Source: a virus. From it: 58,324 bases of DNA. Both the position numbers and the translations under genes were made by a program. This document shows, piece by piece, positions 14,520-41,771 of the stretch (the stretch's first letter is position 1; every line of letters starts with the position of its first letter). The stretch covers positions 1-58,324 of the IMG/VR virus record IMGVR_UViG_3300003886_000004; one strand, given 5' to 3'. The notes beneath the pieces are model-generated. The model saw only the letters and a list, made by a program, of their open reading frames with translations. It was not told the origin of the DNA and did not search any database.

Positions 14520-15382
14520 TTGATTTCCCACAGGTAGTAAGTGTTTCCATCTTCATTATACTTGGTTTGATCAACCTCAGGAATCCTATGGTTGTAAGAC
14601 AGAATCTTTGTACCTACTTTCAACTTTTTCAGTTTAGGTATCACCTCAGCCATCACTTGTGGGTACAGGAACATTGTTACCATTGTAGCTCTTGAAAGAT
14701 CCTGATACTTAATGTCCCCAGTAATCACAAATACCTTCTTAGGGCTTTCAGCTTTAACTCTTGCTCTAGCTTTATCAGCAGTGATTGGGTTAATCTCAAT
14801 TCCTATTCCACGACAGCCGTACTTAGATGCAGCAGTGATTAGTATCCTACCGTCACCACATCCTAGATCATACAGATAATCCTTAGAAGTAGGATTCAGT
14901 ATTCTTAACATCGTATCAACAGCCTTCTGAGGGGAAGGATCTAATTGATTCAAAACGTTGTCTGGGATTATTTGTTGTACGGGTACTGAATTATCAACCA
15001 CCAAATTAGACCGAATATGGTTGCCCATGACAGAGCGTCTAGTACGATCTTCAGGATTAGTGATGTCATTTGAGTAAACCTTTTGAGGTTGGGCTAGTTG
15101 TGGTAAGGGAACTCGATGATTAAGTACAGGACTAGACATATTAGGGACAACATGAAAAGATCTGTTAGGATTTGACTGAGGAAATCGTACATTAGGTATT
15201 CTCCTTTGTGGAGGCTGTGAATACATTGAACCAAATAAACGGTTACACATTGCACAGTTAAGGTTGTTGCAATATCGACCGTTACTGTTTTTGGTGTACC
15301 CTCTTCCGTTACGTCGAAGCCATTGAGCGTCTACTACAGAAGGAGTTAAAAGTAACCAGAAGGCTAGTAGTAAGTATCTCAT
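14516..15382 (-). CDS. SAM-dependent methyltransferase with signal peptide and Cys-rich N-domain
   Basis: 288 residues from the ATG at 15382 (AGGA six bases upstream). A classical signal peptide (MRYLLLAFWLLLTPSVVDA) leads to a Cys-rich segment with RYCNNLNCAMCNRLFG, a Pro/Arg-rich linker, then a class I methyltransferase domain with motif I YDLGCGDGRI and acidic motif II GIGIEIN. Export of a SAM enzyme is unusual because SAM is cytoplasmic, so the N-terminus may be an anchor, or the domain may have another use. Similar Cys-rich secreted segments occur, from memory, in planctomycete proteins (unverified). Confidence 0.75.
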   Translation of the reverse strand: MRYLLLAFWLLLTPSVVDAQWLRRNGRGYTKNSNGRYCNNLNCAMCNRLFGSMYSQPPQRRIPNVRFPQSNPNRSFHVVPNMSSPVLNHRVPLPQLAQPQKVYSNDITNPEDRTRRSVMGNHIRSNLVVDNSVPVQQIIPDNVLNQLDPSPQKAVDTMLRILNPTSKDYLYDLGCGDGRILITAASKYGCRGIGIEINPITADKARARVKAESPKKVFVITGDIKYQDLSRATMVTMFLYPQVMAEVIPKLKKLKVGTKILSYNHRIPEVDQTKYNEDGNTYYLWEIK

Positions 15383-15390
15383 CGTTTTTC

Positions 15391-16038
15391 CTATTTGTAA
15401 TGGGCTGACCAAAACCAGGCATCATTGACACCACGTACTCTAGCTCTAGCCACAAGTTGTGATTCAGGAAGTTCACCATACCAACAGTGATTGGGACGAT
15501 TGAAATCCCAAGAATATCCTGTCCCTGAGTATGTTGTTCCAGGTGCATTACCTAGAGGATGACCACCGTCTCGATGAAGGTGATAATCAGCACCTCTTTC
15601 AGCAATGATTGTTGCTTCACGTAAAGCATGTTGATAGGTGTCAGTCCCCTTACCTACAATGACAGTTAGAGTTTGAGAGGGTTGGGGGAGAATGTGGTAT
15701 TCTGTACCTTGTACTGATTGTAAATGTGGATGTTCTCTCTGTAGTGTTGGATCAATTTCTATGTTAGGTATTTCCTGCATCTCACAGTATTCAGGATTGT
15801 TTGGGTTTTCATGGAGAACCTCAGACACTTTATTTGTATCACCTAAAAACTTTACCCACAGTCTTCGTAGTTCTGGTGGAACGTAGATTGTTGGTTTTTC
15901 TTCTTTTGGCATCCAAGGATCAGATCGAGTTTGAGTCCAATGAACAGAAAAGATTTCCTTGCTTCGGGTAACCCAGACTTGATTGTTGTAATCGCCATCA
16001 TCCTTTGTCGCTTTTCTATCTGTTATCCAATCGCTCAT
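15391..16038 (-). CDS. Accessory protein of unknown function
   Basis: 215 residues, no signal peptide. It has an N-terminal WITDRKATKDDGDYNNQVWV stretch, and a C-terminal domain with ALREATIIAERGADYHLH, HPLGNAPGTTYSGTGYSW and HCWYGELP. His/Cys/Trp-rich conserved-looking motifs suggest a folded, perhaps enzymatic, domain. It is followed closely by the secreted methyltransferase gene. Not recognised. Confidence 0.6.
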   Translation of the reverse strand: MSDWITDRKATKDDGDYNNQVWVTRSKEIFSVHWTQTRSDPWMPKEEKPTIYVPPELRRLWVKFLGDTNKVSEVLHENPNNPEYCEMQEIPNIEIDPTLQREHPHLQSVQGTEYHILPQPSQTLTVIVGKGTDTYQHALREATIIAERGADYHLHRDGGHPLGNAPGTTYSGTGYSWDFNRPNHCWYGELPESQLVARARVRGVNDAWFWSAHYK

Positions 16039-22445: not shown

Positions 22446-23009
22446 CTAGTACATTCTAACCTCCCAGAATACTGTATTGAAATTTGGTAAAGTTCCCCAG
22501 TAACTCGAATAGGTTGAAAATTCAATTACATGATCTGGATAACGATCTAACAATTCACGTAACCAATCTTGTGAATTCGGACACAGGTAGGTATCTAACA
22601 AACACCTTGCAAAGATACCATGAACATAGTTAGACTGTTTTGCTAAAGCATCCCGCATAGGTAGAGCAATCGAACTATACGTAACCAACAATCCTTTAGA
22701 AGACAAAGCAACCTCACCTTGAATGAGTGTATCTTTTGTCGGAGCCATTTCTGAAACATAAAAAGTCTCTAGTGATTCTTCTGAATATCTAAGCCTGATC
22801 GATTCAAATGTTTGATTGTAATGAGTATCCCCACCAATTATTTTGTTTCTCAGATGAAATAAAGATTTTGAAGGTGGGAATTCAAATTTGAAATCATCTA
22901 AAAATACAGAAACAGATTCCCAAGTAGGTCCAGCATTCCCAAATTCACCTAGATTGTACCTACGAACAAAATCCAATTTAGTGGTTACTGGCGGAAAAGA
23001 TTCATTCAT
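22446..23009 (-). CDS. Unknown protein coupled to dUMP-hydroxymethylase-like gene
   Basis: 187 residues overlapping the thymidylate-synthase-like gene by 8 bp. Conserved-looking blocks: RYNLGEFGNAGPTWES, FHLRNKIIGGDTHYNQ and, near the C-terminus, LLDRYPDHVIEFSTYSSYWG followed by NTVFWEVR. The coupling and the cluster suggest a role in hmdU nucleotide metabolism or DNA modification. No family name can be given from memory. Confidence 0.65.
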   Translation of the reverse strand: MNESFPPVTTKLDFVRRYNLGEFGNAGPTWESVSVFLDDFKFEFPPSKSLFHLRNKIIGGDTHYNQTFESIRLRYSEESLETFYVSEMAPTKDTLIQGEVALSSKGLLVTYSSIALPMRDALAKQSNYVHGIFARCLLDTYLCPNSQDWLRELLDRYPDHVIEFSTYSSYWGTLPNFNTVFWEVRMY

Positions 23010-24126
23010 CAGTATATCCTGTTTGTTTACGTTCGTGGGATAATCTTCTTTTTTCCATCCAGGTTACCCCTACATATTTCAGATCACACCAATCAGGTAA
23101 TTTATACAAGTGCTCAAAAGCTGTTGGGAATACTTTTCTTTTGTAAGCGAGATAAGCTAAACACATTGGAGCAGCTACCTCACGTAAAAATTTTGAATCC
23201 CAATTTTGGTGCATTCTCCAATGATCTGTATTTACAAACCTTGTACATTCATCAAGAAAACTTAGATAGCTTGAATTTACACAGATTGGGCGTAAATAAA
23301 TTCCTGTTTTATCAGAAATATAAAGATCTCTACTTGGATCTGAATATATTTTAGTCGGTGTTAAGTATTCTAACCCTTTATCTTTTTCTGTGTAGATATG
23401 TAGATTGTTAGTTATCTGGTGATAAACACCTAAATCAACTTTCAACATATCAGCTATAAATTCCTGGAGAAAAGAAAAATGGAATACATTGGCTCCCAGC
23501 ATCCCCCAGATTAGGTCATTGCTCCTATTGAATACAGTCATGTTCAATTTGTTGTCTAGGATTTCAAACACTGCACTTAGGTTACAAGGTATGTCTTTTC
23601 CTCCTCGGTATCCGGTTTCCAGATCATTAAACCCGTATTCGTTTCTTTCTTCTTGTTGTTCATCTGTTAACTTACCAAATTCTTCAATCGAATGACGGTT
23701 TGAACTATCCCACATTTGTAATACTGCTCTTCGATCATTTTTATTTTCACGTAAAACATCTACAATTCCTGAGATCTGGTCAAACCCTAAACCAGTCCTC
23801 CAACGATGGCCATAAGCCCCGTGAAAAGTTTTTCCATCGTCACTGTAATTCTGGATATTACTATTGTAGTAGCTTAATGCTCTTACATCGTTACTACCTG
23901 CCAACATCCAAAGAGACTCAAAGAGGTGAAAGAAAGGATTACAGTCTCGAATAGGATTAAACAGTACTCTCTCTCTAGGTTTTTCAAACGTAACGATCAC
24001 TGGACCATTAACACGTATAACAGAACCATTCCTAGAATCACTTTTTGTTGTTGGAATATCCCCGTCAGCAATCCTTTGGATTAGACCGTTGAAAGCTTGA
24101 TTGACATTTCTGTAGGTTAAGTGCAT
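23002..24126 (-). CDS. Thymidylate-synthase homologue, probable dUMP hydroxymethylase
   Basis: 374 residues with the thymidylate synthase fold landmarks: catalytic Cys181 in DIPCN, RSND at 201-204 binding nucleotide phosphate, Asn213 in WGMLGANVF at the position that selects dUMP over dCMP, and a late HIY motif. A divergent sequence and the adjacent 5-hmdU kinase argue for a dUMP hydroxymethylase, as in 5-hmdU phages (established for SPO1-like and ViI/M6-like phages), rather than an ordinary thymidylate synthase. Sequence alone cannot separate the two with certainty. Confidence 0.8.
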   Translation of the reverse strand: MHLTYRNVNQAFNGLIQRIADGDIPTTKSDSRNGSVIRVNGPVIVTFEKPRERVLFNPIRDCNPFFHLFESLWMLAGSNDVRALSYYNSNIQNYSDDGKTFHGAYGHRWRTGLGFDQISGIVDVLRENKNDRRAVLQMWDSSNRHSIEEFGKLTDEQQEERNEYGFNDLETGYRGGKDIPCNLSAVFEILDNKLNMTVFNRSNDLIWGMLGANVFHFSFLQEFIADMLKVDLGVYHQITNNLHIYTEKDKGLEYLTPTKIYSDPSRDLYISDKTGIYLRPICVNSSYLSFLDECTRFVNTDHWRMHQNWDSKFLREVAAPMCLAYLAYKRKVFPTAFEHLYKLPDWCDLKYVGVTWMEKRRLSHERKQTGYTDE

Positions 24127-24127
24127 C

Positions 24128-24715
24128 TTAATTTTCCTTGACGATTTCAGTTAATTCTTGTTTCAGTATTTCAAAAGATTTTGATGCTAATTCATATCTG
24201 TGATTTCCTTGGTGAGGGAGTAAAATACTTTTACCTGGTGATTGGGTTCCTAAAAACGCAGAAGTGTTAGAGATTGAATCATCGATCAACACCGTACCTG
24301 GCTTTGAAAACAAGTATTTATGTTCCGTGATTATCAATCGTCTAGTAAAGTCTGAATCAATGTTTCTTTTGTACCACTCTATTTTTCCTTGGAAACAATC
24401 AACAGTAGGAAAAGGTTTAGTCAGAATAAACCAGTCATGCCCTAACTCAGTTATTAAAGAAAGGATCTTATCACAATCAGGAAGAGGATTCAGATTACGC
24501 CAAAATCCATTTCCTAGATCATTGATAACAGATATCATTTCTTCTCTCGTATATCTATCATCTGTTCTCCCAAACAAACTATCTAAAGCCTCAACAATAC
24601 TCCAGGTTCCTAGGGATCTAAATGTTTCCAAAGTTTTTCGGTTGATACCATAAAGATCACAAACCCCCCCGGTAAAATCACAAATCACCTCGTCCATATC
24701 CACATAGATAATCAT
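24128..24715 (-). CDS. HAD-family 5'(3')-deoxyribonucleotidase
   Basis: 195 residues from ATG at 24715 (AAGGAG upstream). N-terminal HAD motif YVDMDEV with Asp6 and Asp8, later FILTKPF (motif II Thr), KTRK-like basic region, and the DDS motif near LIDDSISN. It matches NT5C-type deoxynucleotidases. Next to the hydroxymethylase it probably dephosphorylates dTMP and so keeps thymine out of phage DNA (inference). Confidence 0.8.
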   Translation of the reverse strand: MIIYVDMDEVICDFTGGVCDLYGINRKTLETFRSLGTWSIVEALDSLFGRTDDRYTREEMISVINDLGNGFWRNLNPLPDCDKILSLITELGHDWFILTKPFPTVDCFQGKIEWYKRNIDSDFTRRLIITEHKYLFSKPGTVLIDDSISNTSAFLGTQSPGKSILLPHQGNHRYELASKSFEILKQELTEIVKEN

Positions 24716-24790
24716 TACACTCTCTCCTTTTACGAACAATTTTAGGGTATCGGTTGGAAGTTGTATTTGTTAGAATACCTCACCTCTCAA

Positions 24791-24796
24791 ATTATA
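24791..24796 (-). promoter_or_regulatory. Candidate -10 element for the nucleotide-metabolism operon
   Basis: A perfect TATAAT lies on the minus strand in the only divergent gap of this region (24716-24812), upstream of the deoxynucleotidase gene. No good -35 is seen at 17 bp, so this is tentative. Confidence 0.35.
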
Positions 24797-24812
24797 CCCA
24801 CTGGAAAAACAA

Positions 24813-25130
24813 ATGAAATTGAGAAAACCGCAACATCGAATCCTACAGTTTATGGTTCGCCATTATCAGGTAACAAGAAAACAGATATCGACCAACGCAA
24901 AAGTTGATTATGCAATGTTGACAGAATATCTTGGGGGTCAGGATAAAGAGAAAAGATTGTCGGTTGCCAAAAAGATTGGATTTGAATCATTGATTGATCT
25001 TGATCTAATAGTTGCTGAAAGATTAGAAATTAAAAATCGTTATGTTGTCCATTACAGTTTGTCTAAGTCTGGGAAAGATCTAGCAACTTCCCTTTTCGAC
25101 AAGCAGACAACAAATGTTGAGCAGTCTTAG
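24813..25130 (+). CDS. Small HTH-like protein on the opposite strand
   Basis: 105 residues. The first part (KPQHRILQFMVRHYQVTRKQ, then DYAMLTEYLGG) looks like a winged-helix DNA-binding domain, and a C-terminal wing (YVVHYSLSKSGKDL) fits. It is the only plus-strand gene between 16 and 36 kb, divergent from the nucleotide operon and convergent, with 68 bp of overlap, to the transferase gene. It may be a local regulator of both operons. Confidence 0.6.
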   Translation: MKLRKPQHRILQFMVRHYQVTRKQISTNAKVDYAMLTEYLGGQDKEKRLSVAKKIGFESLIDLDLIVAERLEIKNRYVVHYSLSKSGKDLATSLFDKQTTNVEQS

Positions 25131-25860
25131 ACGTTTTGAATCTTTTGAGACTTTTGTACAGTTTGTTTGTGTCATCACCAATTTGATATCTCTCGTTCAA
25201 ATGTGATTTCCATTTACATAAAACTGTTTCCACTTCTTGGACCCCCACCATTCTTTTGTATCCAGGGGGAGCATAGTAACGATTCAATTCTTCTGAGATT
25301 GTTTCAACTGCCCACTCACTCAACTCTACATTGTTATACACAGGAACGTCTAATTCTTCAGCTAGTCGTCTAGCCCCTTCTAAAGGTGAACTAAATAAGA
25401 ATACGTTCTCAACTGAAAATTCGATATTGACTATTTGTAAACACTCTAGCATATCTGCGATCTTGAATCCGATCCAAGGTCCAAACCCAACCCAACCTAC
25501 TACAGTATTCATAACCTGTTGATAAGTTAACCTATCATTTTCAATGAAAGGAGAAACCAATCTATCTAGTCCTACCGAGGTCAAGTAGTCGATTGAGTTA
25601 GTAGCTAGGTCACCCCGAAAGTGTCTACGTTCGACCCCACGGGGCACCCACGTTGTTTGTGCAGCCCTTTTCATGGTCTCCCAATACTTTGGAGAGTCTA
25701 CTATCCAACAAGCCGTACCAGAGTCGTAGAAACACCAATAAGCAAGCAACCAACGGTACAACTTGAACCCTTTCAAATTTGATTCAAACAGCATTACATA
25801 GATTGGATCTAAATCGTTTGAATCTAATAAATCTTTTCCAAATTCACCACAACTAGACAT
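25063..25860 (-). CDS. Amino-acid:DNA transferase / aGPT-Pplase-like protein
   Basis: 265 residues with DPIYVMLFE, YRWLLAYWCFYDSG, WVPRGVERRHFRGD and WVGFGPWIGFKIADML. These match the DNA-glycosylase-like helical enzymes (alpha-glutamyl/putrescinyl-thymine pyrophosphorylase family) that displace the phosphate from phospho-5-hmdU in DNA and attach an amino acid. The gene overlaps the flavin enzyme by 8 bp. The attached amino acid cannot be read from sequence. The 3' end overlaps a plus-strand gene. Confidence 0.7.
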   Translation of the reverse strand: MSSCGEFGKDLLDSNDLDPIYVMLFESNLKGFKLYRWLLAYWCFYDSGTACWIVDSPKYWETMKRAAQTTWVPRGVERRHFRGDLATNSIDYLTSVGLDRLVSPFIENDRLTYQQVMNTVVGWVGFGPWIGFKIADMLECLQIVNIEFSVENVFLFSSPLEGARRLAEELDVPVYNNVELSEWAVETISEELNRYYAPPGYKRMVGVQEVETVLCKWKSHLNERYQIGDDTNKLYKSLKRFKTSKTAQHLLSACRKGKLLDLSQT

Positions 25861-26704
25861 GTTCTGTTTCGATCCTTATTTTATTTGCTGACCATCCGGC
25901 AGCAATCGTTCCAAGTTTTCCAGAACCGGTAGCTACCCAGATATTCTTATGCAGTTCAACACACAAACAAGGATCGTCACCAGTTGGACAATATGGGCGT
26001 AAGCCGACCTTAGTTTTCTTTGGTGGATTTTTGAATCCTAAAGCTGTTTTACATCTGTCTTCACATTCTCTGGTTTTTGCTCTCGTCCAATTTGCCTCTA
26101 AGATAGCTGTACCGTCTCCGATCCAAATATCTCTACCTTGTTGGTGAGCTACAATCTGTTTGTAAGGTGCCCAATGTTTAATGAATGCTGATTTTATTTT
26201 TCCCCGAAAACGAAAACTTACTCCCTTTTTTTGTTTAATGATTACAGGTAAATCAAGAATACTTGGACTCCATACCCCCGCTGCAACAATAACTAATTTT
26301 GTACGTACCTCTTTGATTATTCCTTGATCGCTGTACAAAACAACAGGACAATTAGAATCTCTTGCTACAACATCAGTAACCTTGCCAGAGGTGATATATT
26401 TTGAGAGGTTTCTTTTTATTGAATCAGGATTAACTCTGGATACGTAAGTAGTCCCACCTAAAGGTTTTAATCTGTGTTCTTCTTCAACTACTCCCCATAG
26501 ATCATTTAAGGTTTCCACAGAATCCTCATAATCATCAGAACGCATACTGCTAACCCAAGAAGGTTTGAAGTGGCCACCACTAGCGTTAGATCCTGATTGC
26601 TCTTGTTGATCATCTAACAGTAAAACTTTTCTACCTTGGGTTAACAAGGATTTGAAAATCGTACCTCCAACTATTCCAGCACCAACTACTACTGCATCAT
26701 ACAT
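25853..26704 (-). CDS. FAD-dependent amine oxidase/lyase (DAO family)
   Basis: 283 residues with Rossmann GAGIVGG (8-14), a DD pair that binds ribose, and a late FAD-binding GSGKLGTIAAGWSAN. It resembles D-amino-acid/glycine oxidases. In thymidine-hypermodifying phages flavin-dependent lyases trim the amino acid already attached to the base (established knowledge). Sandwiched by overlaps between transferase and kinase genes, it is best read as part of that pathway. Confidence 0.8.
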   Translation of the reverse strand: MYDAVVVGAGIVGGTIFKSLLTQGRKVLLLDDQQEQSGSNASGGHFKPSWVSSMRSDDYEDSVETLNDLWGVVEEEHRLKPLGGTTYVSRVNPDSIKRNLSKYITSGKVTDVVARDSNCPVVLYSDQGIIKEVRTKLVIVAAGVWSPSILDLPVIIKQKKGVSFRFRGKIKSAFIKHWAPYKQIVAHQQGRDIWIGDGTAILEANWTRAKTRECEDRCKTALGFKNPPKKTKVGLRPYCPTGDDPCLCVELHKNIWVATGSGKLGTIAAGWSANKIRIETEHV

Positions 26705-27263
26705 TGTGATTCCCTAATAATCGACGTACTATTTTTTTAGTTGCTTGATTCTGTGATACACGATAACAATGTACAGGTGTAAATTCAAATTTAGTTCTGG
26801 TTCTTTCTATCACACCAAACCTACGACGTGTGTTTCCTTCATCTAAAGGTTTATCATTTCCCTTTTCCTCTCTTCTTTTTTTGATTCTGTCAATACACAC
26901 TTCAATATCTGTTGTGAGATAATAAAGGTGTGTGATGGTTTCAGTTAATTTAGAAGTCCATTTCACATCTTCAGAAAGCATCAATCCTTCACAGAGAATA
27001 TCATACTTTCTCAGATCTAACATTTCGAGAATCTCATAAACTATTCGAGAACTACCTAGAACATCACAACCAGCACAAGGGGATTCGTAGTGAGACAACA
27101 CCACGATAGGTCGGGTTCCTTCTAAAGAAGGTCTGAGATACCAAACAGGATTTTTACGTCCTTTGAAATATCTTGGTTCAAATTCCCCTAGTTTCTCCAT
27201 TACTGATTTCATTACAGTGGATTTCCCTGCTCCACTTGTTCCTCTGATTTGTACAATCATCAA
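26697..27263 (-). CDS. DNA 5-hydroxymethyluridine kinase (P-loop)
   Basis: 188 residues with Walker A GTSGAGKST (8-16). Further features are KGRKNPVWYLRP and YDILCEGLMLSEDV, then a lid region with DRIKKRREEKGN. The family phosphorylates 5-hmdU within DNA, activating it for displacement. Position directly between flavin enzyme and helical protein supports this over a metabolic kinase. Confidence 0.78.
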   Translation of the reverse strand: MMIVQIRGTSGAGKSTVMKSVMEKLGEFEPRYFKGRKNPVWYLRPSLEGTRPIVVLSHYESPCAGCDVLGSSRIVYEILEMLDLRKYDILCEGLMLSEDVKWTSKLTETITHLYYLTTDIEVCIDRIKKRREEKGNDKPLDEGNTRRRFGVIERTRTKFEFTPVHCYRVSQNQATKKIVRRLLGNHNV

Positions 27264-28154
27264 TCAAACCCCTTTGTATTTTCGTTTCGATCTACCTTGA
27301 TCCCAGAGAACCCTTTCATATTTATCCCACTCACACAGAGAATGTTCAATTTCTCTTAGCTCAAAGATTGGAAGATCCCACAGTGACTTAGACGAATTAG
27401 CTTGATCTAATAAATCTGTGATAAAATCTAATTCATTTTCCAGAGGAGGAAGTTGGTATGAATTTGAGTCAGTATCGAAAGGAACTTCATGAATCCTATA
27501 CAACCCTCTCGTTGCTCCTGGTCCAACATTGCACCACGTATTGACATCATAAGCATCTTTCAAAATATCAGTATGCCTCAGGTCACATACAATTTCGTAA
27601 GCCATGAAAGATCCGAGACCGTCAAATTGTACAAACGTATCTTGGAAATTTTCAAGAGAACAATCAGCACCTAATTCTCCCATCATCCAGTGTCTATTGT
27701 TCCACACTTCAGTCAATCTATCACAGATGTTAACGTACTTAGGAACTCCCTGGGAAGAAGCAATCATGTATGCCCCTGTAAACAGTCTATCCCCTCGATC
27801 TTTGAGACTCTTCAGCAATTGCTTAGCGTTAGCCTCATTCCATTTTACAGTTAACCCTTCACATACTAGCATTTCACCAGTAGGATGAGGTAGGTTAAAC
27901 CAACGAAAACAGATTGTAGCAAATACAACTTTAGGACTATCTTTCAGTGGATCACGTATGTACTTGCGAAACCACTGAGTAGTCTTATCGTTCTCTCGGT
28001 ATGGGTTAGTGAAAAAGTTATTCTGTAAAACTTCATCGTCAGTCCAAGGTTTGATTATCCCTTTCTTTCTTTTCAGATAGATCTTGTTCCTTTCCTTTAT
28101 CCAATAAAAGAACCTGTCAATAGGTTTCATCTTTTTGACTTTGCTAGTTAACAT
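27264..28154 (-). CDS. 5-hmdU DNA kinase helical-domain protein (HMUDK_hel/aGPT-Pplase fold)
   Basis: 296 residues; GGAG supports the start at 28154. Features FFYWIKERNKIYLKRKKG, KPWTDDEVLQNNFFTNPYRE and DKTTQWF are the family signature, followed by the helix-hairpin-helix-like FDGLGSFMAYEIVCDL and the GPGATRGL loop. It is related in fold to amino-acid:DNA transferases and is usually found fused to or beside the 5-hmdU kinase. It could guide substrate recognition or be a second transferase. Confidence 0.75.
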   Translation of the reverse strand: MLTSKVKKMKPIDRFFYWIKERNKIYLKRKKGIIKPWTDDEVLQNNFFTNPYRENDKTTQWFRKYIRDPLKDSPKVVFATICFRWFNLPHPTGEMLVCEGLTVKWNEANAKQLLKSLKDRGDRLFTGAYMIASSQGVPKYVNICDRLTEVWNNRHWMMGELGADCSLENFQDTFVQFDGLGSFMAYEIVCDLRHTDILKDAYDVNTWCNVGPGATRGLYRIHEVPFDTDSNSYQLPPLENELDFITDLLDQANSSKSLWDLPIFELREIEHSLCEWDKYERVLWDQGRSKRKYKGV

Positions 28155-28380
28155 CAGTAGTCTCCAATCCTTGTGCGTACTTCACATGGTGGGGATAATT
28201 TTTACTCCACGATTGTTGAAGGAGCCAGAACCAATAAGTGTCAGGGATATCTTTTAACTTATAACCTTTGTAAGTTCCCCAGGTCATAATTGATTGATCA
28301 TGTAACAGAATAACGTTACTCTGTTTGATGGTTTCGTTTTGTTCAAGTAGTTTGTTTCGATTTAGATTACAGTGTGGCAT
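28144..28380 (-). CDS. DUF3820-like small protein
   Basis: 78 residues from the ATG at 28380 (GGGGAG upstream, overlapping the polymerase stop). The motif TWGTYKGYKLKDIPDTYWFWLL is split here for quoting: TWGTYKGYKLKDIP then DTYWFWLLQQSW. It matches the small DUF3820 domain also found at the ends of nucleases and polymerases. Role unknown. Confidence 0.65.
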   Translation of the reverse strand: MPHCNLNRNKLLEQNETIKQSNVILLHDQSIMTWGTYKGYKLKDIPDTYWFWLLQQSWSKNYPHHVKYAQGLETTDVN

Positions 28381-30472
28381 TTTCTCCCCAACTAGTTTCG
28401 TGGTAGTCAATTCCTACAGTTAAAGGAACATTGATATCGTTCCCTATATTTTCCATTATACTCTGAATCATTTTTACCTTTCCTAAGTTACGTTTGTTAG
28501 GTCGATACGGAAAATCTAAAACAAGTTCATCGTGTACCTGCATAACAATGTGGTAGTCGAGCAGATCTTTAAGATACTCATACACGTCTACCATAGCTCG
28601 AACCATGACCCAACATGCTGTACCTTGAACGTGATAGTTCAAAGGGATTGTAGGTGATATTTTCCCCCAAGAAGTTGTAGCACAGTAGAGAGGGTATCCT
28701 TGATCCCCTACAGATGAATCAGGAATAGTTTCTACGTAACCGTGTTCATTGGCAAAGTTTATCCAATACTGGTTTAACTTCTCTTGTTTCTTGAATCTGG
28801 CTTTTAATAATCTGTAACACCCTAATCTACGGAAAGTAGCATTTGCTGTAGCTTCTTGTGCCCCGTATTGAATAGCAAACCCTCCATTTTTACACCACTG
28901 ATACCAAGTAGATTTGTATAGATCTTTTATCAGAGTACCTATTTGTTGGGGTCCAACGTCTTGTAAATGTTTGTTCCAAATATCAGGATAGATTGTAGAA
29001 AAGTTCAAAAGATGAACAGAACCAAAATAAGGAGGTTTGTCGGAATATTCAAATAAGTCTACTAATTCAGATTCTTTTGATTCGTAAGCAGGAATACGTA
29101 ACTCGATGTTGTTGTAATCTAATGACCACCACTCTCTACCTGGACTAGGTCCAAATGCGTATCTAAGATTTTTACCCTGTTCATCTTTTTGTTTTGAAAT
29201 AACCTGTTGACTGGGGTTCTTAGATGACCAACGAAGTGTACTTGTTCCTGTCGGGTTTAATGACGGATGCAGACAAAACCAACCTTTATCAGAAGTTTCT
29301 TTCCAAAATCTTACATAACTTTCCATGTAGTTACAAGAGACGTCTAATTTTCGTTTGATCTCTAGGCCAGTAAAAAACGTTTTTGCCAGTGATCGAGTTC
29401 GTGAAGTATCTTTGTACTTGCTTACTACTTCTTTAGTTAAAGATGGGTTACCAGTAGGTGTGTATTCCAGTGGTACCATATTGAGTAGATCGTGATGTGT
29501 TTCAGAACTATCTGTATACCCAAAAACAAAATTTAAGAGAGAATTGTTATTCCCTGATTTTGGTAATTCTAAATCGTACCCAAATGAAGCTGCTAGGTTT
29601 TTACATATTCTACCTTGTTTGTTTGATTCTTTCTGATACGTGTAATACAGTTCATCTAACTTATCTCTAGACAAAGTTATTCCATAATTCTGCATATCTG
29701 AAACTATATGCAGTAACTTGTTTCTGTATAAATACAAATCAGTTAAGTTTAATTCCTCTAATTTTTTACAGACCAATTGATAGAGGATCATTGTAGAAGC
29801 TGAATCAACGTTTGCATACGTAGAACAAAGATTGTACCAGGGGTGAAGTTTAGAAGACATTCCCTGTGTCCAATTTTTGTCTTGATCCGTATCCTCTTCA
29901 TCAATTTCAGGTAATAATTCAGGAGCTAATTTACACAAAGCTCGAAGCAACCACATATCCGATTTCCAAGGTTTCCCCTTTAATGAGGGCATCTGTGGAT
30001 CTGTTATAGTTGATATCCACCAATCAGGTAAAGAACGTCTAACAATGTTTCTTGCTTTTTTTGTTGCCTCTTTCAACACAGTCTCATACTGACGTATATT
30101 GATTCCAAGGTGGACCAAAACCATTGTAGCCAGATCTTTTGGCTGAGAAGAATTTAATAAATGTCCCCCTAACATCGTGTCTCTAGTTTTTCCCCAATCC
30201 CAATTATCTGTCCATCTTCTGTACTTCAAAGTTTTCAACATCGTTACATCAAATACAACATTGTGACCTACGGTAGTTTTAGCTTTTCTAAACTGTCTGT
30301 CTATTTGGGTTAAATGATGGTTTGGAATTTTAGGTATTCTTGTCAAAGGGTCAACATCCCATTCCCAAATATACTGGTTTTCCTGGTCATCACAAATTGT
30401 TACGATATAAGGCATTGAATTATGGTAAGGATCTAATCCAGTACATTCAGTATCAAAAGCTATATCAACCAT
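28367..30472 (-). CDS. polA: DNA polymerase I (family A) with 3'-5' exonuclease
   Basis: 701 residues from the ATG at 30472, which overlaps the upstream stop (TAATG); an upstream TTG is possible. The exonuclease domain starts DIAFDTECTG (Asp7, Glu9) with HNVVFDVTML. The polymerase has motif A WWSLDYNNIELRI (NN in place of the usual SQ), motif B KNGGFAIQYG (keeping Lys and Phe), and motif C QVHDELVLDF. No 5'-nuclease domain. This is the replicative polymerase. Confidence 0.95.
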   Translation of the reverse strand: MVDIAFDTECTGLDPYHNSMPYIVTICDDQENQYIWEWDVDPLTRIPKIPNHHLTQIDRQFRKAKTTVGHNVVFDVTMLKTLKYRRWTDNWDWGKTRDTMLGGHLLNSSQPKDLATMVLVHLGINIRQYETVLKEATKKARNIVRRSLPDWWISTITDPQMPSLKGKPWKSDMWLLRALCKLAPELLPEIDEEDTDQDKNWTQGMSSKLHPWYNLCSTYANVDSASTMILYQLVCKKLEELNLTDLYLYRNKLLHIVSDMQNYGITLSRDKLDELYYTYQKESNKQGRICKNLAASFGYDLELPKSGNNNSLLNFVFGYTDSSETHHDLLNMVPLEYTPTGNPSLTKEVVSKYKDTSRTRSLAKTFFTGLEIKRKLDVSCNYMESYVRFWKETSDKGWFCLHPSLNPTGTSTLRWSSKNPSQQVISKQKDEQGKNLRYAFGPSPGREWWSLDYNNIELRIPAYESKESELVDLFEYSDKPPYFGSVHLLNFSTIYPDIWNKHLQDVGPQQIGTLIKDLYKSTWYQWCKNGGFAIQYGAQEATANATFRRLGCYRLLKARFKKQEKLNQYWINFANEHGYVETIPDSSVGDQGYPLYCATTSWGKISPTIPLNYHVQGTACWVMVRAMVDVYEYLKDLLDYHIVMQVHDELVLDFPYRPNKRNLGKVKMIQSIMENIGNDINVPLTVGIDYHETSWGENATL

Positions 30473-31056
30473 TAAAGACTTTTCCAAATTGAAGACAGTT
30501 CAGTATTCCAACGATCAATGTAATCTTGTGCTGTGGTGTAAGGTGAAGAGTATTCTGTGCCTTGGATGGATAATTTCCAATCTGTCCAAGAAGCGTATTC
30601 ACCTAGAATGATTTTAGTTTCAACAAACTTATCCCTTTCTAATTTTGATTTCCTAACTAACCTGGCCTGGGACAAAACTTGATCCCCATGATCGATAATT
30701 GCAGCATACCTAGAGTGACTTAACTCATTCTTGGTCAATTGTGCCCGCAACCTACCATCGTGAATATAGCAATGACAGGCATGACAGAGAGGAACAGTCT
30801 CTAGGTATTCCATTATCCCTAGTTCATAATCAATTTGGTAGAGTTCATGACCTTCCAGATGATGATGAAATTTAGCCTTTAATTTATGTACACCACAGGA
30901 TGCACATCTGTAATTAGTTGAAGCGTATGCTTCTCCTCTGGTTTTATTCCACCACTTAGAACCTAATACTGTTCTAGGATTCATCCCGTGTAAAGGGAGA
31001 GGAATGTTTTCACTCAACAATACAGAAGGATTTAATTTCCAATCAGACATAGACAT
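30472..31056 (-). CDS. HNH-like zinc protein beside DNA polymerase
   Basis: 194 residues with CASCGVHKLKAKFHHHLEGH and LCHACHCYIHDGR, i.e. two CxxC pairs around a His cluster. This is the typical layout of HNH endonucleases. C-terminal half is helical and basic. It may be a repair or recombination nuclease, or a homing-type nuclease inserted upstream of polA. The catalytic Asn is not obvious. Confidence 0.65.
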   Translation of the reverse strand: MSMSDWKLNPSVLLSENIPLPLHGMNPRTVLGSKWWNKTRGEAYASTNYRCASCGVHKLKAKFHHHLEGHELYQIDYELGIMEYLETVPLCHACHCYIHDGRLRAQLTKNELSHSRYAAIIDHGDQVLSQARLVRKSKLERDKFVETKIILGEYASWTDWKLSIQGTEYSSPYTTAQDYIDRWNTELSSIWKSL

Positions 31057-31786: not shown

Positions 31787-32929
31787 CTAGCCTTCCAGAT
31801 CATCCCAGGAAACAGACTTGTAAACTTCTGCATTGTCGAGATTTTTGAGATTACAAGTTTCTTTGGTTTTGAATACCGCAGTTACTTGACACTCAACTGC
31901 TTTTTTCTTACTTGGTGCTTTGTACAAAACCACGTCATCTTTTTCAGGGATGTATGATTCTTCATCATCCTCTTCACCCTCTTCATCTTCACTATCCTCT
32001 GATTCCCCTTCATCCAGGAACCCACCTAAAGAAACCCAATCTTCATAATCGTTAGGATCGATTCCACGAGACTCAGATTCATCAGTCAAAGAGGTGATTG
32101 CATCTTCATCGTCCAAATCAGCATCAACTCCTAGAGCAGCGAATGTTGCCTCTTCCTCTTCCTCTTCCTCTTCCTCTTCCTCTTCCTCTTCCTCTTCAGA
32201 CAAAACTTCAACTAAGTCTGCCCAAGTTTCATATTCATCAGGATCCAAATCTGATTCAAGAGCGAGTTTGGTCAACTCAGCTTGTGATTCTTCATCTTCT
32301 CCATCCGCTGATTCTCCCAAAGCGACCAAATCAACATCGTCACTTTCTTCCTCTGCTTCTTCAACATCGTCACTTTCTTCGGGTTCGTAACCTTCAGCTA
32401 CCCCATACCAAACACTCTGTACTCTTGGATTAGGGTACTCTTTAGTTCCTTCTCCTATCCAGGTTCGGAAACTAAAACAAGGAGCTTCTTCAAGCAGTTC
32501 CTTACAAGCTGTTTCCAAATCATCAAATTCCAACTCAGAAGTATCTAATCCTAGAAGTTGAAGATTGTTCACCATCGATTTCAAGTGTTCATCAAGAGTC
32601 TTCTTTTTACCTCCTGAATTTGGGGTATCACAAAGAGGTTCTCGAACAAGGAAAACACTTTCCCCGGCTGTTTGAACTTCAACTCCATCGACTTCAACTG
32701 AGGTTGGTTCAAGACACGTACCACGAGCAAAGAAGTAAACTTCCCCTTTCAAGTCACCATCTTCGTAGGTATCGAACCCACAATCAACCAGTTGTGCCAC
32801 ACCGTTACGAATACCAGGAGGAAGACCTCCGCCACCAGGTAATTCAGTATCGTTGTCTTTATTGGAGTTAAATGACTTCTTTCCTTTTGCAGACAATTTA
32901 GACAACACACTTTTCGATCTTCTTACCAT
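31787..32929 (-). CDS. Acidic repeat protein, putative single-strand DNA-binding protein
   Basis: 380 residues. N-terminal basic segment, then a compact domain (about 40-185) with GVAQLVDCGFDTYEDGD, GEVYFFARGTCLEP and VFLVREPLCD, resembling phage SSB-like proteins. Then a very acidic region with two 45-residue internal repeats (pattern L..LG..AD...DE, DP..YE.W..L) separated by 16 consecutive Glu, and a small C-terminal beta domain. Next to Sak4 and CsrA. Acidic tails in SSBs recruit partners. Family assignment is inference. Confidence 0.55.
   Translation of the reverse strand: MVRRSKSVLSKLSAKGKKSFNSNKDNDTELPGGGGLPPGIRNGVAQLVDCGFDTYEDGDLKGEVYFFARGTCLEPTSVEVDGVEVQTAGESVFLVREPLCDTPNSGGKKKTLDEHLKSMVNNLQLLGLDTSELEFDDLETACKELLEEAPCFSFRTWIGEGTKEYPNPRVQSVWYGVAEGYEPEESDDVEEAEEESDDVDLVALGESADGEDEESQAELTKLALESDLDPDEYETWADLVEVLSEEEEEEEEEEEEEEEEATFAALGVDADLDDEDAITSLTDESESRGIDPNDYEDWVSLGGFLDEGESEDSEDEEGEEDDEESYIPEKDDVVLYKAPSKKKAVECQVTAVFKTKETCNLKNLDNAEVYKSVSWDDLEG
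32149..32196. repeat. Hexanucleotide microsatellite (8 units) encoding poly-Glu
   Basis: Eight perfect head-to-tail copies of a 6-bp CT-rich unit on the plus strand encode 16 glutamates (about residues 245-260) on the minus strand. Unit length keeps frame, so slippage would change tail length without frameshift. Confidence 0.95.
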
Positions 32930-32972: not shown

Positions 32973-33167
32973 CTACACAGAATCTTTTTCTATTTCAGAA
33001 CCTCCAATCAATTTATCACGTAAGATCAATTTTTCACGTAAAATGATCTTGTCCTTCGGTGCTTCTATTCCAATTTTAGCACGACCCCTTGAATAACCTA
33101 AAATCTGAATTTTGATTTCATTATCGATCATCACTGACTCACCCTTTTTTACAGTCAAAACTAACAC
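32973..33167 (-). CDS. csrA: CsrA/RsmA-family RNA-binding regulator
   Basis: 64 residues from a GTG at 33167, giving the canonical opening MLVLTVKKGESVMIDN; GGAGGAA lies six bases before it, inside the end of the Sak4-like gene. Later AKIGIEAPKDKIILREKL has the RNA-contacting Arg44 at the usual position. CsrA dimers bind GGA motifs in mRNA leaders and alter translation. A phage copy could reprogramme host metabolism or order phage translation. Confidence 0.92.
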   Translation of the reverse strand: MLVLTVKKGESVMIDNEIKIQILGYSRGRAKIGIEAPKDKIILREKLILRDKLIGGSEIEKDSV

Positions 33168-33168
33168 G

Positions 33169-33987
33169 TCAATTTCCTCCAATCAAATGAACTATTTTTT
33201 TGTATGTTGGATCAACAATAACTTCTGGAAGATCTTGAGAAGATCTAGGACGACGGAACTTTGTTTTGTATACTGCATTCGGTCCAATCCTCAAACAGTA
33301 ATCAACTCCCGGAACTGATTTGATTTTAGTTTTCAATTTTCCCCTGATCTTAACCTTCACCTCTTTTGTTTTTGTACGTAGGAAAGTATGCCCTATGTAA
33401 TCAGCTTCTGGGTTTAACCAACTAGCTATAGAAGGACTTACCGCAGGACCAACAAAAGGTACTACAATTTCACTATCTTCAGTCACATCGAATTCACGCT
33501 CTTGGGCAATAATAACTCTGTGTGCATGTTTTTGACCCATGATCAATCTCAAATACTCTTTGACTTGGATACCAACTTGCATCCAATCAGAACGGGTCGC
33601 CATACCCCAAGTATTTTGAATAGGTATTTCATCTAATCCCAGAATCTCTTTTAACACTAAAGACTGAAGACTTGAAACACCGTCAAGAATTATGGTTTCA
33701 TACTCAGAGAATTTTGGAGCGAGGTCTGTAACTATTTGAATTGATTTATCGATCTCTGCATAATAAAGACCTTTAGTATCAAACACACTCAGAGTACCAT
33801 CTTCAACACAGACGATCAAAGCTTTCTTGGGAAACGTACTAGCTAAGGTAGTTTTACCACTCGCACTACTCCCGTAAAGCACCATTGAGATTTTCCGGTT
33901 ACCACGACTAACAGGACGAATAACAGCAGAGCTAAAACTTTTTCTCACTTTTGCAGGTTTTCTTCTTTTCTTTTTGACAACAACCAT
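33169..33987 (-). CDS. Sak4-like RecA-fold ATPase (AAA_24)
   Basis: 272 residues with a basic N-terminal 30-residue extension, Walker A GSSASGKTT (39-47), Walker B ETIILDGVSSL and a sensor-like RVIIAQERE. This is the phage single-strand annealing/recombination ATPase type found with an SSB and a Cas4-like nuclease, both present here. The last bases carry the ribosome-binding site of csrA. Confidence 0.85.
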   Translation of the reverse strand: MVVVKKKRRKPAKVRKSFSSAVIRPVSRGNRKISMVLYGSSASGKTTLASTFPKKALIVCVEDGTLSVFDTKGLYYAEIDKSIQIVTDLAPKFSEYETIILDGVSSLQSLVLKEILGLDEIPIQNTWGMATRSDWMQVGIQVKEYLRLIMGQKHAHRVIIAQEREFDVTEDSEIVVPFVGPAVSPSIASWLNPEADYIGHTFLRTKTKEVKVKIRGKLKTKIKSVPGVDYCLRIGPNAVYKTKFRRPRSSQDLPEVIVDPTYKKIVHLIGGN

Positions 33988-34067: not shown

Positions 34068-35225
34068 TCACACGTTTGAAAGTTCAGGAAACATCTCAGT
34101 AGTTCTCACTAACCCAGTAGAATTGTTTGTAGCTAAGTAGTGATCAAGATCACCTGTAACTTTCTGAGAGATAGTATTCCAAATACCATAAGGGGTTCGA
34201 TAATGTCTTCTCTGGTGTTCAGGAAACTCTTTAGCTCGAACACTAAAATCGAAAGGACTGATTCCTTTGTTTTTTATACAGTATTCCCACCAAACAAAAT
34301 CATCACATAAGTTTCCCAAAATAGGATTTAGACATTGTTCTTCAAACTTATCTAAATCTGAATCAGTGATTCCCATATCCCAACGCATAAAAAAATAATC
34401 CTTATCATCTTCTATGATCTTTCTCAATCGATCGTGGTATTCCTTTTCGGTTTCAGGAGGTACATTTTTTGATCCTTTCAATTGTCTGATCGATCCTCGT
34501 CCACCTGATAAAGGACGTCTGACAACATTGTAATTGACCCCTTTTATTTTAGCTGTATTAGGTACCCCCTTAATCTGATTAGTCTTCATGTACTTTCTCA
34601 ATGCAACCAGATACGTACCTACTTGTAAATCAAACGATAAATTCAAAGATATTGAATCTTCGTCAATTGTTCCTTTGCTTTTGTTTTCAGTTAAGTAGAC
34701 TCCATCCCGTTTCCAATAATCAACCGCGTCCCATTTTCCCCGAAGTACAACTTCCAATCCCCCGATCGGATAATCAATTTTGAACTCCTTTTCTTGAAAC
34801 ATCGGAACCCTAGATTTTGAAGTATCTTCTTTCCAAACAGTTTCATAGATCGAAAATTGTAGTGTGCAGATCTTGAACCATTTATCAATCTGTTCTTGTT
34901 GATAAGGGTACTCAGTACATAACTCTGTGACAAACTTTTTTAGTTGTGGTTTCCAACTTTCACTACGTTTCAAACATTCTTCACAAAGATGCCACATCTG
35001 CCCGTATTCAATAGCATGATTGAATCCTCCTTGCTCTTTCAAGCCTTCAACAAACGTGATTCTAAATCTTTCAGGACAAACAAAATACTGACCTAGAATC
35101 GATTGAGTTACACCGTCTGTCAACGGACCTTTCCAAGCAGGAGTAAGGTATTCAGGGAGTAACTTGGCCCTTTTTGTTTTCTTCTTTAGTAGTTTAGACA
35201 GCTTTGACATGTGTGACCAGTTCAC
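34068..35225 (-). CDS. PD-(D/E)XK nuclease, Cas4/RecB-like
   Basis: 385 residues if started at the GTG at 35225; the ATG at 35210 (MSKLSKLL) is as likely. Motifs: early SILGQYFVCPERFRI, Asp in GKWDAVDYW, ENKSKGT (E-x-K), and QxxxY in FDLQVGTYLVAL. It probably processes ends for Sak4-mediated recombination. Overlaps the uracil-DNA glycosylase gene. Confidence 0.85.
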   Translation of the reverse strand: MNWSHMSKLSKLLKKKTKRAKLLPEYLTPAWKGPLTDGVTQSILGQYFVCPERFRITFVEGLKEQGGFNHAIEYGQMWHLCEECLKRSESWKPQLKKFVTELCTEYPYQQEQIDKWFKICTLQFSIYETVWKEDTSKSRVPMFQEKEFKIDYPIGGLEVVLRGKWDAVDYWKRDGVYLTENKSKGTIDEDSISLNLSFDLQVGTYLVALRKYMKTNQIKGVPNTAKIKGVNYNVVRRPLSGGRGSIRQLKGSKNVPPETEKEYHDRLRKIIEDDKDYFFMRWDMGITDSDLDKFEEQCLNPILGNLCDDFVWWEYCIKNKGISPFDFSVRAKEFPEHQRRHYRTPYGIWNTISQKVTGDLDHYLATNNSTGLVRTTEMFPELSNV

Positions 35226-35745
35226 TTAGAGATTCGATTGTTTCTTGCACGTAGGTACCTTGGTTCATTTTATCCATTCTCAATAGTGAGGCAGGATGAA
35301 TCAAGTTACACCAAATATATCTGTCTTTTGAACACTGTAAAGATTTTTGAGTTAATTTTTGAGAAAGCTTACCCACACAAACAATAACTGTTGGATCTGC
35401 CATATCAACAAGTTCTCTGAGTCTAGGCGAACACGACAAAACATCTTCTTCATCAGGTTTGTGTATTCCTTGATCTTTGTTATCCTTTGGGATACAGGCA
35501 ACTAGATTAGTAAACAGTAATTTGTACTTGTTCAATCCGCTCAGATTGATTAGTTTAGTCAAAAGATTACCAGCGGGACCAACAAAAGGCTTACCAATCA
35601 CATTTTCAGATAAACCAGGAGCTTCACCAACAAATAACACGTCGCAGGGGATCGAACCTCTAGCAAGTACAACTTTCATTCTTTGTTTGTACAACTTACA
35701 AAGTTTACAGGATTTCCAGTTATTCTTGTGTTGAATGTATTTCAT
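35194..35745 (-). CDS. Uracil-DNA glycosylase, family 4
   Basis: 183 residues. FVGEAPGLSENVIGKPF and GPAGNLL form the uracil-binding and water-activating region, HPASLL is the late motif, and Cys13, Cys16, Cys84 and Cys105 match the 4Fe-4S ligand spacing. In a genome predicted to carry hmdU it would remove misincorporated dU. Start overlaps the RuvC-like stop by 4 bp. Confidence 0.9.
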   Translation of the reverse strand: MKYIQHKNNWKSCKLCKLYKQRMKVVLARGSIPCDVLFVGEAPGLSENVIGKPFVGPAGNLLTKLINLSGLNKYKLLFTNLVACIPKDNKDQGIHKPDEEDVLSCSPRLRELVDMADPTVIVCVGKLSQKLTQKSLQCSKDRYIWCNLIHPASLLRMDKMNQGTYVQETIESLSELVTHVKAV

Positions 35746-36293
35746 TTTCTTTTTCGTTTGGGTATCTTGGCAGGTTTTGATTGGTTCATTCTTCTAATAT
35801 ACTCTGCAATCAAAAGAGCGTCACAAAGTTGTAGTTGTGAATTTACAGAAAGATTCCACATTTCCAGATTAGGGAATAAAATCTCAGCAACATCACGTAA
35901 CCTCAATTTATATTCAGAAGAAGTTTCAATAAATTTCCTACCTTGTTTCATCCTGGGAGGAATGTTCAACCCTTTTTGCCACTCTTTAGGTTGTACCTTT
36001 GTGTGATCGATTCCCTGAATACACAAACAGCCTTCGAGGATACCTACTTGTTTACCAAAATTGAAGGTGCCTTTTGCTGAACTACCATAAATAGCGTGAA
36101 CATCTTCCATATAAACAAAAAATTGAGTGTTCCATTTTGGCAATCCCTTTATTAAACTTCTAACTGTGAGTTTTGTTTCCTTAAAAAATACAAATCCTTC
36201 AACAGTCAACTCACCTTCAGACCTCGCCAATTTAACTATTGCACCCTTTTGACCAGGATCAATACCAATAAAATACTCAGTAACAACAGTCAT
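35742..36293 (-). CDS. RuvC-like Holliday-junction resolvase
   Basis: 183 residues. RNase-H fold with Asp12 in GIDPGQKGAIV, Glu in YMEDVHAIYG, family segment NFGKQVGILEGCL, and C-terminal acidic site LQLCDALLIAEY. It resolves branched DNA before packaging. First gene of the minus-strand replication operon. Basic C-terminal tail. Confidence 0.9.
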   Translation of the reverse strand: MTVVTEYFIGIDPGQKGAIVKLARSEGELTVEGFVFFKETKLTVRSLIKGLPKWNTQFFVYMEDVHAIYGSSAKGTFNFGKQVGILEGCLCIQGIDHTKVQPKEWQKGLNIPPRMKQGRKFIETSSEYKLRLRDVAEILFPNLEMWNLSVNSQLQLCDALLIAEYIRRMNQSKPAKIPKRKRK

Positions 36294-39378: not shown

Positions 39379-39591
39379 ATGAGTGAGTACAGAAAGTCAC
39401 AAAAGAAAGGTAAAAACCTTTCCAAGGAAATTGATAAGTATCTGACTTTGGGAATATCCCCTGAGCACGCTTTATCCGATTTGAGTAGTCAGTGTTTGAA
39501 AGACCTGTGTGGGTTTTTTGATATCACTGTACCAAATACTAAATCTGGTCAATACGAACGATTAGTCCACTACTATAGAACTGGAGAGTGA
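39379..39591 (+). CDS. SAP-like small protein
   Basis: 70 residues from the ATG at 39379 (AAGGAG upstream; the longer frame runs into the structured leader). The C-terminal SQCLKDLCGFFDITVPNTKS and QYERLVHYY resemble a SAP/HeH nucleic-acid-binding helix pair. Basic N-terminus. Followed within 3 bp by the AAA ATPase gene. Confidence 0.55.
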   Translation: MSEYRKSQKKGKNLSKEIDKYLTLGISPEHALSDLSSQCLKDLCGFFDITVPNTKSGQYERLVHYYRTGE

Positions 39592-39593
39592 TA

Positions 39594-40862
39594 ATGATTA
39601 CTGGAATCTGGAAAGATAAAATTTCAAAGTTGTGTCTGTACTATCTTAAAACCGATCCTGATAATTGGTGGGAATTGTCTAGGTTGTCTGAATTGATTCT
39701 TCCTGAAATCCAAAATGATGGGTTCATAGGGGACACCCCTGAGATTAAAAAGTTTCTGAAGCAAATAGCCTCTCTCTCTGATAAGTTAGAAGTGTCATCT
39801 GAAGATGATGATTACATAAGTCTTTCTGAAAGTGAACAAGATGGAACGAATAACTTAAACTCTAAAGTAAAGCTGTTGAATATCCAAATCAAAACGTTAC
39901 AGAAATCAATAACCAATTTGAAAGAGGATTCTGAGCAATCGATCAAAATGATTAAGGTTGCAACTGACGAAGCTAAAAAGTACAAAAAGTTATCCGAAAC
40001 TGCTAAAGGGAGAATCATTGAGGTTCGGGTAAAAAAGGGAGCTAAGATTGTCCGACGTATGAAAGAATCGTTTCATCATACGTTCCCTAAACTTTTGTCA
40101 TTGATCCAAGAACGAAAACATACAATGCTGTATGGCCCTACTGGATCTGGAAAGACACATATCTGTATGTCTCTAGCAAAAGCCATCGATTCAAGAAAGT
40201 TTGGGTTTCTATCTTGTTCTGCAGGAATGAGTGAATCCAAAATTCTCGGAACAACAGGGATTGCCAAGAGCGGTGAATTTGAATACCGTATTTCAGACTT
40301 CATTGACATATTTGAGAATGGAGGATTATTCCTGTTTGACGAAATGGACAGGGCTGATTCCAATGTTCTTATGGTTATCAATGCTGCATTAGCAAATGGA
40401 ATCATTCCTGTTTCATCACGTACTGATCAACCTTACGCTACCAAGCATTCCAATTTTGTTTGTGTCTGTGCAACTAATACCGTTGGATCGGGTGGGGATC
40501 GAACCTATACGGCAGCCAATCGATTAGATATGAGTACGTTGAATCGGTTTTGGAAAATCAAGATAGGGTATGATCTTGCAGTTGAAAAAGTTCTATGTCC
40601 TGACGAAGAACTCCAATCGTACTGTTGGGCTATTCGTCACGGAATCGAAGTGAACCGACTTGAACAGGTTATGTCTACCCGAACGATGAAAGAGGCATAC
40701 GAGTTGAAGTTTGGAAAGTCCGACTTTTCTTGGACACAGAAAGAGATTGACCTATCTTACTTCTCTGGTTGGCCGCAAGACCAATTTGAGAAAGTGAAAT
40801 CGTCCTGCTACGGAAAAGGGGTAACTCTTTCACTAGACTGGAATGAACTGCAAGCCGTTTGA
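39594..40862 (+). CDS. AAA+ ATPase, MoxR/CobS-like
   Basis: 422 residues from the ATG at 39594 (GGAG). N-terminal helical and coiled region (about 85-145), then AAA domain: Walker A GPTGSGKT (181-188), Walker B GGLFLFDEMDRADS, sensor-1 FVCVCATNT and arginine-bearing LNRFWKIKIG. CobS/MoxR ATPases act as chaperones with VWA partners, and the next gene encodes one. Confidence 0.85.
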   Translation: MITGIWKDKISKLCLYYLKTDPDNWWELSRLSELILPEIQNDGFIGDTPEIKKFLKQIASLSDKLEVSSEDDDYISLSESEQDGTNNLNSKVKLLNIQIKTLQKSITNLKEDSEQSIKMIKVATDEAKKYKKLSETAKGRIIEVRVKKGAKIVRRMKESFHHTFPKLLSLIQERKHTMLYGPTGSGKTHICMSLAKAIDSRKFGFLSCSAGMSESKILGTTGIAKSGEFEYRISDFIDIFENGGLFLFDEMDRADSNVLMVINAALANGIIPVSSRTDQPYATKHSNFVCVCATNTVGSGGDRTYTAANRLDMSTLNRFWKIKIGYDLAVEKVLCPDEELQSYCWAIRHGIEVNRLEQVMSTRTMKEAYELKFGKSDFSWTQKEIDLSYFSGWPQDQFEKVKSSCYGKGVTLSLDWNELQAV

Positions 40863-40913
40863 ACCTGTTGAAGATTAATCACTACCACTACCATCATTAC
40901 TGAGGAACTAATT

Positions 40914-41771
40914 ATGACTATGCGAACTGATCTCTCGTTAGAAGACAACTTACTGTACATCTTTGACTCGATGACTGAAATGGTTGAGTTTACTGACTCT
41001 AAATTTTTCTCATCTCGATCAGGAGAATGGGTAGGTGAAGAATTCCAGTCTTGGGAAGATGTTGAAACCAGATGTAAGAAAAATTGGGACTACGGAACAG
41101 ACGTAGTCGATTCCTTTGTTGACCGTCTGTACAAAGAAGAGGTGATTGTTACCAAACACCTGAAATCAAAAAAGAGAAAATCGTCTTACAACGATGAAGG
41201 GGAGGGGGAAATGGAATGGGAAAGAATGATGAACGGTGAAGCTTTCTGGAGGGAAACAAAGAAAGAGTCTACTGAAGGACCAGGAGAGATGACAATCATC
41301 GTTGACACCTCTACCTCTTACGATAAGGAATCTGAAGATATCCTATGGCGTGGTGGGGCCGCTCTTGCGTTGGTCAAGATTCTTGAAGAACGATCTTACA
41401 AAGTTGAATTGTGGGCAACCAACGGATCTCAATTGTTTTCTGGTTCCACTAATTCGGTGATAACTGCTTGTTGTTTGAAACGAGCTTCTGACCCGTTGGA
41501 TATGACCACGTTGACCAACACTCTAGCTGGATGGTTTTACCGTTCTTCAACGTTCGCATTGCTAGACACAATTTGTGAACATGCTCACCGTACAGCAAGA
41601 TCTGGATACGGAAATGTCTGTCCTCCTAACCAAGTGGATTTGGATTGCCTGACAACCGATCAGCATCGAATCTACGTATCGGGGGTGTACTCATTCTCGG
41701 CGGCAGCTTCCGTAGTCATGCGTGAGATTGAACGAGTTGCGGTATCCGCTGGGTGGTCAAAAGGTAAATAG
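40914..41771 (+). CDS. VWA-type partner protein of the AAA ATPase
   Basis: 285 residues. After a charged linker a metal-binding MIDAS motif DTSTS (131-135) follows IIV, then a Rossmann-like VWA core (GGAALALVKILEERSYKVEL) and a late DQHRIYVSG. Comparable phage proteins are annotated as DUF7192/CobT-like (from memory). The pair probably remodels a protein or nucleoprotein target. Confidence 0.7.
   Translation: MTMRTDLSLEDNLLYIFDSMTEMVEFTDSKFFSSRSGEWVGEEFQSWEDVETRCKKNWDYGTDVVDSFVDRLYKEEVIVTKHLKSKKRKSSYNDEGEGEMEWERMMNGEAFWRETKKESTEGPGEMTIIVDTSTSYDKESEDILWRGGAALALVKILEERSYKVELWATNGSQLFSGSTNSVITACCLKRASDPLDMTTLTNTLAGWFYRSSTFALLDTICEHAHRTARSGYGNVCPPNQVDLDCLTTDQHRIYVSGVYSFSAAASVVMREIERVAVSAGWSKGK

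Follow-up and report, generated by a model that had tools for sequence, protein, structure and literature searches.

Phages are already known to carry csrA. The gene has been listed in 30 of 2517 phages (PMC7366521), and a survey of IMG/VR found that its presence in phage and in host is significantly correlated, an anti-CRISPR role having been put forward for the phage copy (PMC8450108). Knock-down of csrA in phage PTXU04 leads to smaller plaques (PMC11879866). The present work concerns the single CsrA gene of the virus record IMGVR_UViG_3300003886_000004, whose 58,324 nucleotides are called the window here. The gene lies in a phage genome, which also carries Sak4, PolA, 5-hmdU kinase and HNH genes and a large-terminase-like gene at 10864-12402.

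The csrA reading frame runs from 33167 to 32973 on the minus strand, an orientation that the preliminary description had not given, with a GTG start, a TAG stop and the product MLVLTVKKGESVMIDNEIKIQILGYSRGRAKIGIEAPKDKIILREKLILRDKLIGGSEIEKDSV. This protein matches the Pfam CsrA family PF02599 (57.9 bits, E 9.7e-16, with a cut-off of 27) and the PHROG 9500 family 'CsrA-like regulator' (E 3.7e-10), far above chance, and a PDB profile search returned CsrA/RsmA family entries only. Arg44 is present, and it is kept in 22 of 22 aligned relatives and in 27 of the 29 sequences of a wider set, where an automatic alignment placed a Lys in one of the others and a gap in the second. The earlier claim that a complete CsrA with Arg44 is encoded here is therefore borne out, with two departures. 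Position 6 is Val, where 26 of 29 relatives have Arg and where Met and Leu also occur. In the CsrA/RsmA family, Arg6 of the first strand, a residue implicated in RNA binding by the E. coli protein, is a supporting rather than a defining feature. The second departure is a C-terminal hexapeptide duplication, in which ILREKL reappears as ILRDKL; the 18-bp repeat behind it (1.9 copies, 94% match, TRF score 63) is absent from the aligned relatives.

An AF2 model, predicted as a monomer from a 22-sequence alignment, reached a pLDDT of 81.5 overall and of 91-95 over residues 1-40. Foldseek matched it to RsmE in complex with the hcnA Shine-Dalgarno RNA (2jpp, TM 0.89 by target) and also to the CsrA-CesT complex (5z38), with a probability of 1.00 to RsmE/CsrA, and the modelled protein shows the CsrA fold. 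Judged from its sequence, the gene is a real and probably functional CsrA. A passenger drifting towards loss of function in this phage would be in keeping with the divergence of the window copy (33% identity to E. coli CsrA), with Val6 and with the tandem duplication, and another member of the Sak4 clade described below has, between sak4 and the downstream gene (4807-5043 of locus L109), a relic-like ORF with a faint, barely recognisable CsrA resemblance (score 5.7). However, the window frame is intact, its ribosome-binding site is good, Arg44, Gly33, Ala36 and Pro37 are retained and the core of the model is confident, so that we regard decay as improbable.

The start of csrA and its upstream neighbour also agree with the preliminary description, which had placed the gene just after a recombination ATPase, with a GTG start and a ribosome-binding site in the previous gene. 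Both Pfam and PHROG identify the preceding product as a Sak4-like AAA_24 ATPase. The sak4 stop codon TGA (33171-33169) lies one base before the csrA GTG, and the GGAGG at 33180-33176, with a spacing of 8 nt, therefore falls within sak4. In relatives a csrA site of the same type, CAAGGAGG, encodes the C-terminal QGG of Sak4, so the tight sak4-csrA coupling is common to them, and csrA is probably coupled translationally to the sak4 upstream of it. A longer ORF starting at a TTG (33182) was rejected, the TTG overlapping the ribosome-binding site and the relatives beginning at the GTG position.

The surrounding genes are ordered RuvC, UDG, PD-(D/E)XK exonuclease, Sak4, CsrA, acidic protein, HNH and PolA (Table 1), which includes the exonuclease, Sak4 ATPase and SSB-like succession of a Sak4 recombination operon, with synteny in four relatives. 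The relatives, found via the 5-hmdU kinase protein, the acidic protein and Sak4, share this order at a protein identity of roughly 40-50%. The acidic protein matched no Pfam or PHROG family. Its AF2 model (pLDDT 85) was matched by Foldseek to a Serratia phage Serbin protein (E 1.7e-7) and more weakly to DUF669/SSB entries, and because of these matches we consider it probably the single-stranded-DNA-binding protein (SSB) of the module. Its C-terminus has a weak Tudor-like domain match (E 0.05), and 8.2 perfect copies of CCTCTT at 32149-32197 correspond to a poly-Glu run in it.

Table 1. Features of csrA and of the operon that contains it, in window coordinates.
Feature	Position	Strand	Basis
RuvC-like Holliday junction resolvase, first operon gene	35742..36293	-	phrog_1770 72.4 bits
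Uracil-DNA glycosylase-superfamily protein, same operon	35194..35745	-	PF03167 87.4 bits
PD-(D/E)XK exonuclease, same operon	34068..35225	-	PF12705 46.4 bits; phrog_1218
Sak4-like recombination ATPase (AAA_24)	33169..33987	-	PF13479 61.8 bits; phrog_124 Sak4-like 98.5 bits
csrA ribosome-binding site GGAGG	33176..33180	-	inside sak4 3' end, 8 nt before GTG
csrA, 64 aa, CsrA/RsmA-family RNA-binding protein	32973..33167	-	PF02599, phrog_9500, AF2, Foldseek
18-bp tandem repeat in csrA, duplicates Arg44 segment ILREKL/ILRDKL	33007..33041	-	TRF
Acidic protein directly downstream of csrA, probable DUF669/SSB-like	31787..32929	-	AF2 + Foldseek
HNH endonuclease, downstream, kept in relatives	30472..31056	-	phrog_5200 79.8 bits
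Family A DNA polymerase, downstream, kept in relatives	28367..30487	-	PF00476 100.7 bits

Other parts of the window carry a hypermodified-thymidine gene set (22446-28154, minus strand) comprising a thymidylate-synthase-like protein (PF00303), a 5-hmdU kinase helical protein (PF18723, 156 bits), a kinase-like protein, an amino acid:DNA transferase ADDT (PF18724) and a DAO oxidase (PF01266). In one relative (L090, 13097-14904) the 5-hmdU kinase helical protein occurs in two tandem copies, which suggests two substrates or a split function. The window also encodes a subtilase near the contig end (2031-2957, minus strand; PF00082, 160.7 bits) and, on the strand opposite to most genes, a MoxR-like AAA ATPase adjoining a DUF7192 protein (39588-41771, plus strand). 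A planctomycete host, an idea based on the motif YCNNLNCAMCNRLFG, is unsupported because searches of genome contigs by Sak4 or by the methyltransferase at 14516-15412 confirmed nothing and a plasmid search for a host link gave generic methyltransferases only.

The distribution of csrA was followed with a 20-sequence Sak4 profile, which yielded 80 loci and, with the window, 68 distinct phages at 95% identity. An acidic SSB-like family comes right after sak4 in 40 of these 68, which form one clade in a quick Sak4 tree (SH-aLRT 100). Within this clade of uncultured phages with a DUF669/SSB-like downstream protein, csrA was found in 31 of 40; in 29 it lies on the same strand at a distance of up to about 3 kb, both counts being lower bounds because many contigs are fragmentary. 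Its place in those 29 is between sak4 and the SSB-like gene (22 phages), just before sak4 (2) or further upstream (5), and in two more clade phages it lies elsewhere on the contig, beyond the 3-kb region. No csrA was found anywhere on the contig in the 28 phages without the SSB-like family; the Fisher p of 1.9e-10 for csrA by clade membership is descriptive only, being inflated by common descent because the compared groups are two clades. By the gene order of these contigs, csrA is a conserved part of the recombination operon in many distantly related phages.

Distances between Sak4 proteins correlate with those between SSB-like proteins (r 0.49, p 0.0005). No such correlation was seen for Sak4 and CsrA (Mantel r 0.13, p 0.18), which lends no support to strict vertical co-inheritance; the absent co-divergence may reflect a short, saturated protein or replacement of csrA. 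As far as these comparisons reach, the place of csrA is conserved more strictly than its descent is traceable. A search for close relatives by CsrA itself returned a single near-identical contig fragment. A general link between viral CsrA and Sak4 was rejected, a Sak4 match lying within 3 kb in 7 of the closest 80 canonical viral csrA loci, one of them at 16 bits only. Four canonical viral csrA loci (L244, L251, L252 and L254) have a UDG relative nearby and no Sak4 match, so that phage csrA has a second setting linked to DNA metabolism.

Because csrA sits between the ATPase and the SSB-like gene and, among the 68 Sak4 loci, is confined to phages that carry this SSB-like family, its product could be imagined as a non-regulatory partner, a small beta-barrel dimer that would serve the Sak4/SSB machinery as a nucleic-acid-binding accessory or be carried in the virion, for which Burkholderia phage JC1 offers a possible virion CsrA, represented by one peptide (PMC9144972). 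We give this reading little credence, as Arg44, the residue that binds GGA RNA, is retained together with the core of the family. Moreover, csrA was not found in 9 of the 40 clade members, all with Sak4 and SSB-like genes, so the machinery seemingly does not need it.

We know of no mapped targets of a phage CsrA. The preliminary description had raised redirected host carbon metabolism or phage mRNA use as possibilities, and a self-regulatory version of the second idea is that CsrA binds the leaders of the phage's own recombination and replication mRNAs, its own GGAGGA site included, and thereby controls the relative amounts, or the timing, of Sak4, the SSB-like protein and the polymerase. That csrA keeps to one region of the operon in 29 of 40 phages, though at varying places (after sak4, before sak4, before the exonuclease), would suit such a loop, as would the GGAGGA of its own ribosome-binding site. 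However, among csrA carriers GGA was not in excess in hairpin loops of the sak4 leaders (0.22 vs 0.18 shuffled) or of the SSB leaders (0.14 vs 0.17 shuffled), the window's own leaders showed no excess of GGA hairpins, the csrA-SSB gap in the window has no GGA and the window's distal leaders fall below coding GGA density. Nor did we find a CsrB/RsmZ-like sponge RNA in the window, by Rfam match or as a GGA-enriched intergenic stretch, a result with which a host-encoded sponge RNA may be compatible. Phage mRNA use is thus left without sequence support, and we judge self-regulation unlikely; the null result is weak evidence against it, since GGA is itself part of Shine-Dalgarno sites and so conceals an autoregulatory site.

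The explanation that we favour, with modest confidence, is that CsrA acts mainly on the host. The protein would most likely fold as the usual domain-swapped dimer, bind GGA motifs in mRNA leaders via its Arg44 surface and repress or re-tune their translation. Because the gene shares an operon with the phage recombination and replication genes and its ribosome-binding site is internal to sak4, CsrA would be made together with their products, and its main job would probably be to re-set translation of host mRNAs (metabolism, motility, possibly defence) during phage DNA replication. The negative phage-leader and sponge-RNA searches point to host mRNAs as the principal targets. The PF02599 score, the RsmE/CsrA model match, Arg44, the gene order of the clade and the literature argue for this explanation; Val6 at the usual Arg6 and the uncorrelated Sak4-CsrA distances count against it. 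A tentative alternative, which we hold to be the less probable course, is that CsrA in this large group of related uncultured phages functions within the Sak4/SSB module, controlling its translation or participating in it, and not a free-standing host-takeover gene. With csrA integrated into a single operon, and with members that have naturally lost it, moved it or carry a diverged copy, this clade offers a defined set for distinguishing host takeover from self-regulation.

The closest known systems frame these results. Bacterial CsrA, RsmA and RsmE (PF02599; 1y00, 2jpp, 5z38) resemble the window CsrA in length and fold and share with it Leu4, Gly33, Ala36, Pro37, Lys38, Arg44 and Glu45, whereas their Arg6 and His43 are replaced by Val6 and Leu43. 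Unlike them, the window protein has a hexapeptide duplicated after Arg44, and its gene belongs to a phage operon. The modules of Brevundimonas phage Polewnik and Desulfofustis phage LS06-2018-MD02, two isolates whose Sak4 is more distant, have the exonuclease, Sak4 and acidic downstream protein in the same order as the window but without csrA between the last two. We found no paper naming both CsrA and Sak4, and the sak4-csrA-SSB-like setting is apparently undescribed, although phage csrA itself is already known: like the window, the genomes of tailed phages such as the Pseudomonas RsmM phages, Vibrio phage 1.232.O, Burkholderia phages DC1/JC1 and E. coli phage PTXU04 carry a CsrA gene (PMC7366521, PMC8450108, PMC9144972, PMC11879866). 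The surroundings are unrelated in the examples inspected, the Vibrio phages having small hypothetical genes next to it and JC1 portal/capsid genes (PMC9144972), whereas in the window csrA is flanked by sak4 and the SSB-like gene.
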